Assembly: GCF_000014005.1 (NCBI RefSeq)
Contig: NC_008009.1
Coordinates: forward strand, 2,604,001-2,668,000
Origin: Candidatus Koribacter versatilis Ellin345
Lineage (GTDB): Bacteria > Acidobacteriota > Terriglobia > Terriglobales > Acidobacteriaceae
Direction of reading: 5' to 3'
DNA: 64,000 nt
Below the pieces are notes generated by a model, which did no database searches, was not told the DNA's origin, and saw only the letters and a program-made list of their open reading frames with translations. Positions 22,423 through 26,468 of the stretch are shown piece after piece. Numbering within the stretch: position 1 is the first letter of the stretch; every line of letters starts with the position of its first letter. Made by a program: the position numbers and the translations under genes.

Positions 22423-22727
22423 TGGCTCATTTTTTCATTAAGCTGATCGGCCCTCGTCCGACTTTTCCCTTCGACATGAACGAGAGCGAACGTGCCCTGA
22501 TGACGCAGCACGCCCAGTACTTCCAGGAGCGCTTTAACCAGCGGAAGGTCCTGATCTATGGTCCGGTGATGGACCCCCAAGGCCCTTACGGCATGGGTGT
22601 GCTCGAAGTTGCCGATGATGCGGAAGCACGCGGCATCATGGATGCCGACCCCTCGGTGGTCGCCGGCTTGAATCGGTACGAGATGTATCCGATGAAGATT
22701 GGCGGAGCGCAGGCCTCGGCGGTTTAG
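22422..22727 (+). CDS. YciI family protein
   Basis: A 101-residue small protein of the YciI (ferredoxin-like alpha/beta) family: FFIKLIGPRPTFPFDMNESE, RALMTQHAQYFQERFNQ, GPVMDPQGPYGMGVLEV, ADDAEARGIMDADPSVVAG. The HAQYF His and the DP pair correspond to the His-Asp site in the family. Starts on the last base of the rhomboid stop. Cytoplasmic; function unknown. Its end overlaps the convergent SDR gene by four bases. Confidence 0.88.
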   Translation: MAHFFIKLIGPRPTFPFDMNESERALMTQHAQYFQERFNQRKVLIYGPVMDPQGPYGMGVLEVADDAEARGIMDADPSVVAGLNRYEMYPMKIGGAQASAV

Positions 22728-23509
22728 AGCGTTCCGGCCGTTGGCCTGATCAATAACTCTTCGATGGTCGCGTTTGCCGGCAGACACAGGGCTGCCACCA
22801 CGGCATCGGCCACGCTCTCCGCCGACATCATCTTCTCGCGCGGCGCGTCCTTCCAAAATTGCTGCCAGATCTCGGTATCGGTTGCGCCCGGCACCAGCGA
22901 AATCACGCGGATACCCCGCGGCCGCAGTTCCTCTCGCAACGTATTGGTGAATGCCAGTAATCCCGCTTTCGAGGCGCTGTACGCGGCCATGCCCGGAAAC
23001 GCCGTGTTGGCGGCGACCGAGACGTTATTCACCACCGTCGCGCCAGGAGACATCATCGGCAACGCTGCGCGTGTGCAAAGAAATGCGCCCGTGAGATTGG
23101 TCTCGATGCAGGCTTGCCATGCCTCGAGCGAAAGATGGTCCACCTGCGCGTTGCGCTGCGCCAATCCCGCGTTGTTGACGAGTACATCGATCTGCGAATA
23201 GTGCCGGTGGATTGCCGCGAACAACTCGTCAACCGAATCCTCGTCTCGCACATCGCAAACGTGGCTGACGACGGTCCCGCCATCGCGCTTGATCTGGTCA
23301 GCTGCATGATGGAGCGTGTGTTCATCGCGCCCGGTAATGATCACGCTCGCGCCTTCTTTGGCGACCGCACGCGCCATGGCAAGGCCGATCCCGCGGTTGC
23401 CGCCGGTAATCAATACAACTTGATCTTCCAAGCGACGCAACTCAAGTGGAGGCAATTTACGCCTGACGATGCGAGCTTCGGGTTTCTTTTGCGTCTTCTT
23501 CCTGGCCAT
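22724..23509 (-). CDS. SDR family oxidoreductase
   Basis: A 261-residue short-chain dehydrogenase. An N-terminal basic extension (MARKKTQKKPEARIVRRK) precedes the Rossmann fold: VVLITGGNRGIGLAMARAVA, CDVRDEDSV, VLVNNAGLAQ, NVSVAANTAFPGMAAYSASK with the catalytic Ser-Tyr-Lys, and VISLVPGATDTE. It uses NAD(P)H. It is the last gene of a minus-strand run with folE and two pterin synthases, so a sepiapterin-reductase-like role is possible, but SDR sequences alone do not show substrate. Confidence 0.9.
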   Translation of the reverse strand: MARKKTQKKPEARIVRRKLPPLELRRLEDQVVLITGGNRGIGLAMARAVAKEGASVIITGRDEHTLHHAADQIKRDGGTVVSHVCDVRDEDSVDELFAAIHRHYSQIDVLVNNAGLAQRNAQVDHLSLEAWQACIETNLTGAFLCTRAALPMMSPGATVVNNVSVAANTAFPGMAAYSASKAGLLAFTNTLREELRPRGIRVISLVPGATDTEIWQQFWKDAPREKMMSAESVADAVVAALCLPANATIEELLIRPTAGTL

Positions 23510-23541
23510 AGCGACGCAACGATTCTAAACCTGCGTCACCG

Positions 23542-23913
23542 TTATTTCTTTTTCGGCGTCTCCCACACCGGGCGCGTCACGAAGTAAGTGAGCGAGTCGC
23601 CCTTGTCGTAATAGAAGTCCCCTTGCAGGTCTTCGTGGGCATCGCCGAGGTGGCGAATGTCGTGCCACACCACGTGGTTCACCCCGCCGATGCGCCCGGG
23701 GCCCGGGATCGGCTCGTATTTCACGTCGCCACCACGACGCGAGAGCCACGGCTCCAGGTCGGAGCGCGGTACGCCGCCGAAGGCGTGGTCTTTGATGTCA
23801 TAGAGGAGCTTCTTCGGGCCGTCCTCGGCTTTATTCACTTGCTTCCATTCGTAGACGAGCACCATGCCGAGGAGGATCGCGAGCAAGCACAGGATGTATT
23901 GAAATGTGTTCAT
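23542..23913 (-). CDS. Hypothetical protein with N-terminal membrane segment
   Basis: A 123-residue protein: one N-terminal transmembrane helix (FQYILCLLAILLGMVLVYEW) and a soluble remainder with WLSRRGGDVKYEPIPGPGR and HDIRHLGDAHEDLQGDFYYD. I chose the ATG with GGAG just upstream; a GTG nine bases earlier is possible. It lies between the SDR and folE on the same strand. I do not recognise a family. Confidence 0.6.
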   Translation of the reverse strand: MNTFQYILCLLAILLGMVLVYEWKQVNKAEDGPKKLLYDIKDHAFGGVPRSDLEPWLSRRGGDVKYEPIPGPGRIGGVNHVVWHDIRHLGDAHEDLQGDFYYDKGDSLTYFVTRPVWETPKKK

Positions 23914-23958
23914 CTGCTCCACTCGGGCGACTGGCTGCCGCCCGAGGAGCCGGCAGAC

Positions 23959-24558
23959 CTAGAAGCCGTTGGTCTTAGAATTGCGCACCAGCGAGAGGAA
24001 CTCCTCGCGGGTTTGCGGCGCACGAAACGCCCCCAGCATAGCTGAAGTCACTGTGGATGAGTGCTGTTTTTCCACGCCCCGCATCATCATGCACAAGTGG
24101 CGGGCTTCGATGATCACGCCTACGCCCAGCGGTTCGATCACGCGCTCAATCGTTTGTGCTATCTCGGTCGTCAGACGCTCCTGAACCTGCAGGCGGCGAG
24201 CGAAGACTTCGACCAGGCGCGGCAGCTTGCTCAACCCGATCACCTTGCCGTTTGGGATATACGCGATATGTACCTTACCGAAGAACGGCAGCAGGTGATG
24301 TTCGCAGAGGCTGAACATCTCGATGTCTTTGACGATGACCATCTCGTCATAAGTGACGGTGAAGAGCGCGCCGTTGAGCACGGTCTCGGGATCTTCGTCG
24401 TAGCCCTTGGTCAAGAACTTCAGCGCTTTGGCATATCGCTCGGGCGTACGCAGCAGGCCTTCACGCTTCGGATCTTCGCCAATTCGCTGCAAAAGTTCAG
24501 CGACGAGCTCTTCGTTGCTCGCGCTGGTCAGGGTTGTGGGTTCTTTTTCGGTCTTCAT
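23959..24558 (-). CDS. folE: GTP cyclohydrolase I
   Basis: A 199-residue FolE. Family signatures are present: [50 protein letters not shown] (zinc Cys and His residues in [10 protein letters not shown]), [29 protein letters not shown] (second zinc Cys). It converts GTP to dihydroneopterin triphosphate, the entry to folate, tetrahydrobiopterin and 7-deazaguanine synthesis. Two pterin synthase genes lie nine bases upstream and are mutually overlapping; the shared operon points to the biopterin or queuosine branch. Confidence 0.96.
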
Positions 24559-24567
24559 CGTAAGTGC

Positions 24568-24975
24568 CTATTCGTTTACAACTTCGAAACTGTTCTGCGA
24601 GGTTTCTTCAAGTCTTACTTTATCCAGATGAATTTCAGCGAGATTTCGTTTCAGAATCTCAAAGATCGCCAGGCACAGATTTTCCGTGGTCGGCACCAGC
24701 TCCTGGAATTCCTTCAGGCAGTTCAGGTTCTGGTGGTCATATCGCTCTAAGATGTGTTTGCGCACCACCCGGTCGACGTCCGCCAGGTTGTAGACCATCC
24801 CGGTGTCCGGCGCCACTTGCCCGCCGACGGTCACCTCCAGGGCGTAGTTATGCCCGTGGCCAAAGGGGTTATTACATTTCCCGTAGACTTCGCGGTTTTC
24901 GGCCTCGCTGAGCCGCGGCGTATGCAGGCGGTGCGAGGCCACAAACCAATAGCGTCTTGTGAGATGGGCCTTCAT
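24568..24975 (-). CDS. 6-Pyruvoyl-tetrahydropterin synthase / QueD family protein (copy 1)
   Basis: A 135-residue T-fold enzyme; start chosen as the ATG overlapping the preceding stop (ATGA), rather than an upstream in-frame start. Zinc ligands are His15, His40 and His42 (VASHRLH; FGHGHNY); the catalytic Cys34 sits in YGKCNNPFGHGHNY; Asp80-His81 (YDHQNLN) complete the site. The spacing CxxxxxHGH is that of animal PTPS rather than CxxxHGH of E. coli QueD, from memory. The product would be 6-pyruvoyl-tetrahydropterin or a carboxy-tetrahydropterin. Confidence 0.9.
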   Translation of the reverse strand: MKAHLTRRYWFVASHRLHTPRLSEAENREVYGKCNNPFGHGHNYALEVTVGGQVAPDTGMVYNLADVDRVVRKHILERYDHQNLNCLKEFQELVPTTENLCLAIFEILKRNLAEIHLDKVRLEETSQNSFEVVNE

Positions 24976-25385
24976 GCTTCCCCGAGGTAGTCCACCCACA
25001 GGTCGTGCATCTCGTAGAGCCGCACCCGGTGCAGCTTCGCGACGTGCAGCTTCCCTTCCAGGCGCTTCCAGATGGCGATCGCGATGTTCTCTGTCGTTGG
25101 GATCTGCGACTTGAACTCCGGAACCTCATGATTGAGGTAACGGTGGTCCATGGCGTCCACCACTTCCCGGTTCATGATTTCCTTGAGCTGTTTCAGGTCC
25201 ACCACGAAGCCAGTAGTAGCATCCACCGTGCCCTTCACCGTCACTTCCAGGGTGTAGTTATGGCCGTGACCGTTGCTGTTGTTGCATTTCCCGAAGACGC
25301 GCAGGTTCTCTTCCGCGGTGAAGTCCGGATTGTGGTAGTGGTGCGAAGCCGAGAACTCGCTCTTGCGGGTGAGATAAACGACCAT
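24972..25385 (-). CDS. 6-Pyruvoyl-tetrahydropterin synthase / QueD family protein (copy 2)
   Basis: A 137-residue paralogue of the next gene in the run. Zinc ligands His15, His40, His42 (SASHHYH; SNGHGHNY), catalytic Cys34 in FGKCNNSNGHGHNY, then Asp80-His81 (MDHRYLN) and PTTENIAIAIWK. The two copies share the CxxxxxHGH spacing but differ throughout the second half, so they may not be redundant: one could act in biopterin and the other in queuosine synthesis. The 3' end overlaps the start of copy 1 by four bases. Confidence 0.9.
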   Translation of the reverse strand: MVVYLTRKSEFSASHHYHNPDFTAEENLRVFGKCNNSNGHGHNYTLEVTVKGTVDATTGFVVDLKQLKEIMNREVVDAMDHRYLNHEVPEFKSQIPTTENIAIAIWKRLEGKLHVAKLHRVRLYEMHDLWVDYLGEA

Positions 25386-25394
25386 GTAGGGAGT

Positions 25395-26468
25395 TTAGAC
25401 CTTTTCCGCCACCGGCTTGGTCACCGGTTCTTCCGGCGGTGCCGGATAGGAACGGCCCTTCCACGTCACCGCGCCCTTGGCGTAGCTGTTCACGGAGCGC
25501 CGCAGCAGCCACGCGAAGATCGGCAGGCCGAAAATCGCGAGCGACTCTGAGAACGCGCCGAAGTGCGCTTTGCGGATGCGGCCAAGGAACTTCGTCCAAA
25601 GCGCGACGGCCAGCGCCGTGAACCCCGCGGCGATGAAGAAGCGCTGAAAAAACGCGGCTGCCGTGCCGCAAGCCAAAGCCGCGGCGATCCACGCGAATTC
25701 CAACATGCGCTGCGCCGCGAGCTGACGCGCGTCCGGGAACAGCAGCGCCAGGTTTTTCGTCCAGCCTTCGCGAAGCTGACGGAAGTTGCGGTACATGCGC
25801 GTCTTCACCATCTCGCCGCCATAGCGGAAATGGAGCCGTCCACCTGCCTCCTTGATGGAGCGCGCGAGATCTACGTCCTCGAGGAGCGTGTGCGCGATAG
25901 AAGCATGTCCGCCGATGAGTTCGTAGGCATGTCGCCGCACGAGCAAATATTGGCCGTTGGCGGCAGCGGCCGGCGATCGCGGATCGCTCACTTCGCGCGG
26001 CTTGAAAGTTTCGGCAAGCTCGGCGAAAACCACCGGCATCACCGCGCGTTCCCAGAAGGACTTAACCACCTGTTCGGGCGAATACGAGAGCAGGTCGGCG
26101 CCGTGTTTCTCGGCTTCTCCAACGGCGCGGGCCAAAGATCCTGGCTTGTGAAAGGTATCGGCATCGGTGAACAGGAACCAGTCGCCGCGGGCATGACGTG
26201 CGCCAAAAGCCACTGCGTTCGATTTCCCGCACCAGCCTTCCGGCAGCGGAGGGGCCGACATCACGCGAACCGCGGAAAAGCTCTCAGCAATCTTGCGGGT
26301 TCCGTCGGTCGAGCCGTCGTCTACCACGATAATTTCGAACGGGATACCGTCCTGCTCAACGATCGACTCGAGGCAAGCCTCCAGGCATGCTTCCTCGTTG
26401 CGCGCAGGGATAATCACCGACACGATGGGTCGCTGGTAGCTACGTCGAATTCGTTTGCGAAATGCCAT
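25395..26468 (-). CDS. Glycosyltransferase family 2 protein
   Basis: A 357-residue GT2 enzyme with a GT-A domain: VSVIIPARNEEACLEACLES, IIVVDDGSTDGTR, LPEGWCGKSNAVAFGARHA, FLFTDADTFH (DxD metal site), then LLEDVDLARSIKEAGGRLHF (ED acceptor motif) and a tail of two or three hydrophobic segments (WIAAALACGTAAAFFQRFFI; SLAIFGLPIFAWLL). The overall plan resembles HpnB/CrtQ-like glycosyltransferases that act on membrane lipids, but the acceptor is not known. First gene of the minus-strand run leading to PTPS and folE. Confidence 0.85.
   Translation of the reverse strand: MAFRKRIRRSYQRPIVSVIIPARNEEACLEACLESIVEQDGIPFEIIVVDDGSTDGTRKIAESFSAVRVMSAPPLPEGWCGKSNAVAFGARHARGDWFLFTDADTFHKPGSLARAVGEAEKHGADLLSYSPEQVVKSFWERAVMPVVFAELAETFKPREVSDPRSPAAAANGQYLLVRRHAYELIGGHASIAHTLLEDVDLARSIKEAGGRLHFRYGGEMVKTRMYRNFRQLREGWTKNLALLFPDARQLAAQRMLEFAWIAAALACGTAAAFFQRFFIAAGFTALAVALWTKFLGRIRKAHFGAFSESLAIFGLPIFAWLLRRSVNSYAKGAVTWKGRSYPAPPEEPVTKPVAEKV

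Follow-up and report, generated by a model that had tools for sequence, protein, structure and literature searches.

Why does Candidatus Koribacter versatilis Ellin345 carry, directly upstream of its gene for GTP cyclohydrolase I (folE), two adjacent genes for a 6-pyruvoyl-tetrahydropterin synthase (PTPS) of the animal type? The two genes, here called PTPS-A and PTPS-B, or simply A and B, lie in a stretch of 64,000 nucleotides of the genome (NC_008009.1, positions 2,604,001 to 2,668,000; in the following, the window). The run consisting of the two PTPS genes, folE, an open reading frame (ORF) of 126 amino acids and a gene for a short-chain dehydrogenase/reductase (SDR) occupies positions 22724-25385 of the window on the minus strand, with a gene for a family 2 glycosyltransferase (GT2) immediately upstream. 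A first-pass annotation had noticed folE, two synthases and an SDR on one strand, which was confirmed by ORFs and profile matches, and had read them as a candidate tetrahydrobiopterin operon. From comparison of the sequences with those of relatives we regard it as probable that the operon makes a tetrahydrobiopterin-type pterin and that its PTPS is a single heteromer of A and B, with an active site split between the two.

A catalytic triad probably divided between tandem paralogues

In PTPS, Cys42 of one subunit reportedly acts together with Asp88 and His89 of another, which Ploom et al. are said to have described in 1999. The term "intersubunit catalytic triad" stands in the title of a 1995 paper by Burgisser, cited in PMC2229834, PMC7546909 and PMC10767420. 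The positions scored by us were Cys34, Asp80 and His81, in the numbering of the window's PTPS-A.

Set one comprised 87 loci of the window's own group, namely the best 80 of 311 matches to the window's PTPS-A and seven loci of the window's family; 86 of them have both copies. The 80 loci are assigned to Acidobacteriaceae, Acidobacteriales, Terriglobales or Sulfotelmatobacter, or only to Acidobacteria or Terriglobia. Since the search patterns included the Cys motif of A, A proteins devoid of this Cys are under-sampled among them. Set two was drawn from a second order of the class, the one around G187, in which 150 genomes were searched, 140 had a match and 130 loci were read, the nine weakest and G284 being left out; 128 have both copies. 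Dropped from the pair counts were L066, which has A without B, and L200 and L237, which have no full-length B domain (each of the two does show fragments of B that carry the Cys motif). One B row is gapped at the Cys column, which leaves 213 readable rows in the 214 tandem pairs.

The two genes of every one of the 214 pairs share a strand, and their starts are never more than 829 bases apart. B has retained the Cys in 213 of 213 readable rows and A the Asp-His in 214 of 214, whereas A is devoid of the Cys in 129 of 214 and the Asp-His of B is broken in 92 of 213. Every one of the 213 scored pairs has a whole mixed site, made of the Cys of B and the Asp-His of A; 46 have an intact reciprocal site. 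Neither protein contains a full triad in 54 pairs (53 of set two and one of set one), and in every one of these the mixed site is whole. The first-pass annotation had missed this complementarity.

Set two A has the Cys in none and the Asp-His in all of 128 rows, its B the Cys in 128, the Asp in 93 and the His in 93. Set one A has the Cys in 85 and the Asp-His in 86 of 86 rows, its B the Cys in 85 of 85 readable rows, the Asp in 63 of 86 and the His in 56 of 86. On the tree the loss in A requires two changes; that in B is scattered over the B tree, where the 214 scored rows, that of the window among them, call for 37 changes or more. Across the pairs each partner thus keeps one half of the triad and the reciprocal half decays, from which we infer that A and B are complementary rather than redundant. 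A malaria-type switch to Glu at the Cys place of A was considered and rejected: Glu is found there in 31 of 128 rows, but so are Ala, Asn, Asp, Ser, Gly and Thr in others, so that there is no common new residue.

The same division was found in other families of the phylum. The survey covered 34 genomes with at least two PTPS matches, of which most but not all copies were fetched, and scored only copies with CxxxxxHGH and their evident partners; PTPS-like copies such as those at L312, L316, L317, L320-L324, L327-L330, L332-L337 and L340-L348 were left unscored. Seven genomes outside the class have the complementary halves, two of them fused, one in tandem and four on separate contigs. In the two fused cases (family f14) a single frame of 309 or 297 amino acids, followed by folE, contains two Pfam PTPS stretches, the first with the Asp-His and without the Cys, the second with the Cys and without the Asp-His. 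The tandem pair belongs to a genome of f53. In three genomes of f34 and one of f66 the partners are found on different contigs, and here the Asp-His partner is also devoid of the zinc ligand His40 and of Glu125, as aligned; taking the seven together, this partner has lost His40 in five and Glu125 in six (as aligned). All eight site residues are present in the controls: eight of eight lone PTPS of type II (PTPS-II) from five families, seven of seven QueD and three of three animal rows.

A quick tree had hinted that the split in f34 and f66 arose convergently. This was abandoned: grouping their Asp-His rows with A gave a slightly better likelihood and is not rejected in the approximately unbiased (AU) test (p 0.56), a single and a repeated origin both being compatible with the 130 columns.

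Family membership, proposed enzyme and points against it

The first-pass annotation had correctly ascribed to both synthases the spacing CxxxxxHGH (CNNSNGHGH in A, CNNPFGHGH in B), which is the published motif of PTPS-II (PMC5041015). For both, the best match in the PDB is 1b66 (E 7e-39 for A, 4e-32 for B), and each of the window's copies has all three zinc-binding His, the Cys, the Asp-His and the anchoring Glu. A PTPS/QueD tree, which the annotation had proposed as a check, was built from 112 rows and 130 kept columns after removal of the eight site columns. In it the two synthases side with the PTPS of rat, human and C. elegans and not with QueD, of which seven rows split off with a support of 100 in the Shimodaira-Hasegawa-like approximate likelihood ratio test (SH-aLRT). 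A forms one clade (97), and B does so save for a single long-branched row. The outcome that would have spoken against the annotation, both synthases falling in with QueD, was therefore not observed.

On the QueD (PTPS-I) model TIGR03367 (cut-off 89.25 bits) A scores 75.4 and B 69.5 bits, and their spacing is CxxxxxHGH. The motif ExxHGH of PTPS-III, which is associated with a bypass of FolB (PMC5041015), is absent, Ser in A and Pro in B standing at the place of the Glu. Both proteins also stay below the cut-off of TIGR00039 (97.8 and 83.1 of 125.5 bits); as this model is named for PTPS and QueD alike, and as the genome's clear QueD is below it too (88.9 bits), it does not define PTPS-II. The assignment of A and B to the PTPS-II type is supported by motif, PDB match and tree. 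Apart from A and B, the genome has just one further PTPS match, a QueD. A plasmid search with A returned 11 records, all below 60% identity, the annotated ones being QueD or 6-carboxytetrahydropterin synthase; with PTPS-B it returned no records.

From gene content, gene order, family membership and one-sided conservation, all of which were observed, we infer the following pathway. FolE would convert GTP to dihydroneopterin triphosphate, and PTPS would convert this to 6-pyruvoyl-tetrahydropterin, to be reduced onward in one or more steps by the SDR or other reductases. A and B would assemble into one T-fold enzyme. To its working site B would contribute the Cys, the Zn(His)3 and the Glu that anchors the pterin, and a neighbouring A would contribute Asp80-His81. 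A site of the opposite composition, with the Cys from A and the Asp-His from B, would be dispensable; it has decayed in most relatives read. Because the chemistry of the composite site is that of canonical PTPS, the product would most likely be 6-pyruvoyl-tetrahydropterin.

Several points weigh against this proposal. In the window pair both triads are complete and nothing has been lost, so that either A or B could work alone here and the heteromer in the window rests on orthology. Three genomes of f17 have two complete copies, and in one of f38 (G064) one copy is complete and the other is without both halves. The proposal presupposes that, as reported, the Cys sits on one subunit and the Asp-His on the other. 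The enzyme is described as a dimer of trimers (PMC7546909). Two partners cannot take turns in a ring of three, which is a difficulty for a triad formed inside one trimer; either the triad would have to span the two trimers, or the trimers be mixed, or the ring size differ. Throughout sets one and two A retains the zinc His and the Glu almost everywhere, which a dead site would not need. Residue 17, beside the zinc ligand, is a Tyr throughout the A proteins of set one (86 of 86) and, with few exceptions, a Leu in B; Leu is also seen by eye in the three animal rows. In set two (L151-L280) 123 of 128 A proteins have Cys17, two residues after the zinc ligand His15, and this Cys could be a moved nucleophile or a zinc ligand. 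As to the pathway, 15 of 54 relatives have no SDR gene within 3 kb downstream of folE, and in L066 GT2 and PTPS-A are present, but PTPS-B and folE are both absent from the 8 kb that follow. Phenylalanine 4-monooxygenase (PhhA), a candidate user of the pterin, is patchy in the window's family (11 of 20 genomes; carbinolamine dehydratase 19 of 20), which makes the link to a tetrahydrobiopterin user loose, since all 20 genomes have three or four PTPS matches.

The pattern at residue 17 may mean that the site of A is remodelled rather than dead. It is in our estimate unlikely that the acidobacterial PTPS is an obligate heteromer in which a canonical site (zinc, Glu and Cys of B with the Asp-His of A) is joined by a different, remodelled A site that performs a second step or serves regulation. 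Such an A site would still hold zinc and pterin, with Tyr17 or Cys17 beside the zinc and with Cys34 absent in one order. If the two-site proposal were true, one tunnel enzyme would perform two reactions on a pterin.

Animal PTPS (1b66 from rat, 2g64 from C. elegans and 3i2b from human) are like A and B in CxxxxxHGH, the three zinc His, the Asp-His, two Glu and the side of the tree; A and B differ from them in being two paralogues in tandem, with reciprocal decay of the catalytic halves. Human PTPS is a hexamer of identical subunits (PMC10767420). QueD (PTPS-I) and the PTPS-I/III hybrid share the COG0720 fold family with A and B and differ from them in motif spacing and place in the tree. Uricase and bimodular QueF are two-domain T-fold enzymes, in which unlike halves surround one tunnel and share sites. 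The proposed A+B enzyme would resemble them in having unlike T-fold domains and would differ in its reaction and in that their halves are fused in one chain. PTPS-II occurs as a dual-domain protein in cyanobacteria and as a single-domain protein in green sulfur bacteria; like these, A and B are bacterial PTPS-II, but each has a gene of its own, and fusion is confined to the two genomes of f14. Bacterial PTPS-II, including a two-domain form, is the subject of a title by Kong of 2006 (cited in PMC5041015).

PTPS-II, biopterin synthesis in bacteria and the two-domain PTPS-II are thus already known; what would be new is a PTPS made by two genes that share the triad between them. Among the titles listed in searches of the open-licence literature, which were only in part aimed at bimodular or heteromeric forms, none names a heteromeric or split PTPS. 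The pairs would show clearly how paralogues can share out an active site that lies between subunits; the human form of this enzyme is a disease gene. The stages lie within one phylum: the single gene, the complete tandem pair, the tandem pair with one or both triads broken, the fused chain and partners on separate contigs. Annotators are warned not to call the second copy redundant, nor the first copy inactive. A split triad yields sharp mutational predictions, and animal-type biopterin synthesis in soil bacteria becomes testable.

Homomers, spare copies and folate

A and B could also be two homomers, one of which makes 6-pyruvoyl-tetrahydropterin for biopterin, the other having drifted to a different reaction on pterins, with the canonical copy differing between orders. 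We hold this to be rather unlikely. It agrees with the finding that A by itself has a full triad in 84 of 85 scored pairs of set one, and B by itself in 75 of 128 of set two, with the persistence of zinc ligands and anchoring Glu in both proteins and with their different residue 17 (Tyr or Cys in A, Leu in B). It does not agree with the 54 pairs that are without any complete homomer, nor with the complementarity of the lost halves, which extends over all 213 scored pairs and over the seven genomes whose partners are fused, in tandem or separate. In f34, f53 and f66 the Asp-His copy is without zinc ligands and is therefore unlikely to be an enzyme by itself. A plain tetrahydrobiopterin operon with a recent redundant duplicate, the degeneration being the ordinary decay of a spare copy, appears to us highly improbable. 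Both copies in the window do look complete, but A and B are separate clades that span two orders, so that the duplication is old, and in none of the 213 or 214 pairs has decay reached the half that each partner keeps, the Cys in B and the Asp-His in A.

That one of the pair replaces the absent dihydroneopterin aldolase (FolB) in folate synthesis was the explanation first favoured by us. FolB was found neither in this genome nor in any of the 20 family members sampled, and across the phylum 143 of 199 genomes lack it; FolK is present in 189 of the 199 and in 20 of 20. At least two PTPS are present in 85 of 143 FolB-lacking versus 7 of 56 FolB-bearing genomes (related genomes are non-independent), but 56 of the 143 manage with a single PTPS. 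The third PTPS gene of the genome, over the NCBIfam cut-off, is its QueD (L001:1495-1872; G000:C1 ~5501528-5501896). Its motif CENPHGH is of the CExxHGH type, a PTPS-I/III hybrid described as serving both queuosine and folate (PMC5041015). Among the FolB-lacking genomes checked, 34 of 43 have a CxxxHGH protein that reads CExxHGH, the present genome being one of them; among the FolB-bearing ones none of 12 does; the 43 and 12 are the fetched genomes, out of 199, with a CxxxHGH protein, and they include close kin (13 of the 34 belong to f21). Locus L339 (G051), which is without CxxxHGH, was set aside. Across the checked Acidobacteriota genomes CExxHGH tracks the absence of FolB. A and B of the window are both without ExxHGH, and human PTPS does not make 6-hydroxymethyl-dihydropterin (PMC2229834). 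Since the genome's QueD has the hybrid motif, folate can be explained without A and B. With genomes that have a single QueD also devoid of FolB, and with CExxHGH tracking this absence, the replacement of FolB by A or B was dropped and is now judged very unlikely. The first-pass annotation had also suggested a look for queE: a QueE-like radical-SAM gene does adjoin the QueD gene, its score on TIGR04349 (226 bits) staying below the cut-off of 300.

Reductase, pterin users and neighbouring genes

For the SDR the first-pass annotation had sepiapterin reductase in mind. On the sepiapterin reductase model TIGR01500 the protein scores 60.2 bits versus a cut-off of 206.55, and no molecule of that name is included in the top 60 of its 696 distinct PDB sequences. 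The search for other sepiapterin reductases in the genome ended likewise, with 22 matches to the model, the window's SDR being second, and the cut-off unreached; none of 14 control genomes passes it. The residues Ser-Tyr-Lys look present by eye. Position in the operon, the only argument for it, makes the SDR a possible candidate for the reductase of the pathway.

The genome encodes both a pterin-dependent hydroxylase, PhhA (PF00351 at C1:1350402-1351064, over the NCBIfam cut-off), and a pterin carbinolamine dehydratase (PF01329 at C1:2763374-2763640). PhhA is also present in 12 of 13 genomes of f21, whose single PTPS match has QueD spacing, and it is probably not the sole user of the pterin. 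Of the tetrahydrobiopterin operon as first annotated, the PTPS-II pair and FolE stand, with PhhA and the dehydratase elsewhere in the genome; the SDR is at most a candidate sepiapterin reductase, and the link to PhhA is loose. A tetrahydrobiopterin-type pathway is plausible.

In genomes of f23 (e.g. G097:C1:3829089-3829895) Biopterin_H matches as two separated halves in frames of 517-676 amino acids, which suggests an aromatic hydroxylase with an insertion.

The features of the run are collected in Table 1. The gaps read from the sequence are 9 bases between GT2 and A, -4 between A and B, 9 between B and folE, 36 between folE and the 126-amino-acid ORF and 32 between this and the SDR gene; from A to the SDR the gene ends thus overlap or nearly so, as had been noted. 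The overlap of A and B is ATGA if PTPS-B starts with the ATG at 24975 (the ORF list put a GTG start at 24999). Since the GT2 gene ends 9 bases ahead of PTPS-A, the run begins further upstream. The genes named in the first-pass annotation were correct; the 126-amino-acid ORF between folE and the SDR gene and the GT2 gene upstream went unmentioned.

Table 1. Genes of the PTPS run and its upstream neighbour, in window positions
Feature	Position	Strand	Matches	Remark
GT2 glycosyltransferase, HpnB-like but below cut-off	25395..26468	-	Pfam Glycos_transf_2 116 bits; TIGR03469 163 bits vs cut-off 379	
PTPS-A, CNNSNGHGH	24972..25385	-	PF01242 130.6 bits	Proposed supplier of the invariant Asp80-His81
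PTPS-B, CNNPFGHGH	24568..24975	-	PF01242 115 bits (scanned from longer GTG start)	Proposed supplier of the invariant Cys34, the zinc ligands and two Glu
folE, GTP cyclohydrolase I	23959..24558	-	PF01227 257 bits; TIGR00063 above cut-off	
126-amino-acid ORF, unnamed	23542..23922	-		N-terminus hydrophobic by eye
SDR	22724..23509	-	adh_short 200 bits	Possible last reductase of the pathway

Among the 80 best-matching relatives' loci, A and B are adjacent on one strand in 79, and folE comes next after them in 75, four of the remaining five reaching the contig end soon after B and the fifth being L066. With the seven loci of the window's family added, an SDR gene is found at most 3 kb downstream of folE in 39 of the 54 loci with at least 3 kb beyond folE, and a GT2 gene lies on the same strand upstream of A in 52 of the 62 relatives having at least 3 kb upstream. 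As the gene order is kept across the 80 loci, the run is not due to chance. For the 126-amino-acid ORF there was no Pfam or NCBIfam match at E 0.001 and no tblastn match at 1e-10 in 87 relatives' loci.

folE is the sole PF01227 match in the whole genome (the FolE2 type was not searched). Its relatives in the PDB are 1wm9 (255 bits), 1is7 and 1fb1 (~240 bits each) and 1fbx (113 bits), which we take to be the enzymes of Thermus, rat, human and E. coli, respectively.

Cyanobacteria glycosylate pterins, and by analogy the HpnB-like GT2 glycosyltransferase might glycosylate the pterin, or it might be unrelated. In L133:1843-3372 (G084) and at the matching place in L026, two loci that appear to be one genome, GT2 and PTPS-A are read in one uninterrupted frame of ~510 amino acids, a possible fusion.

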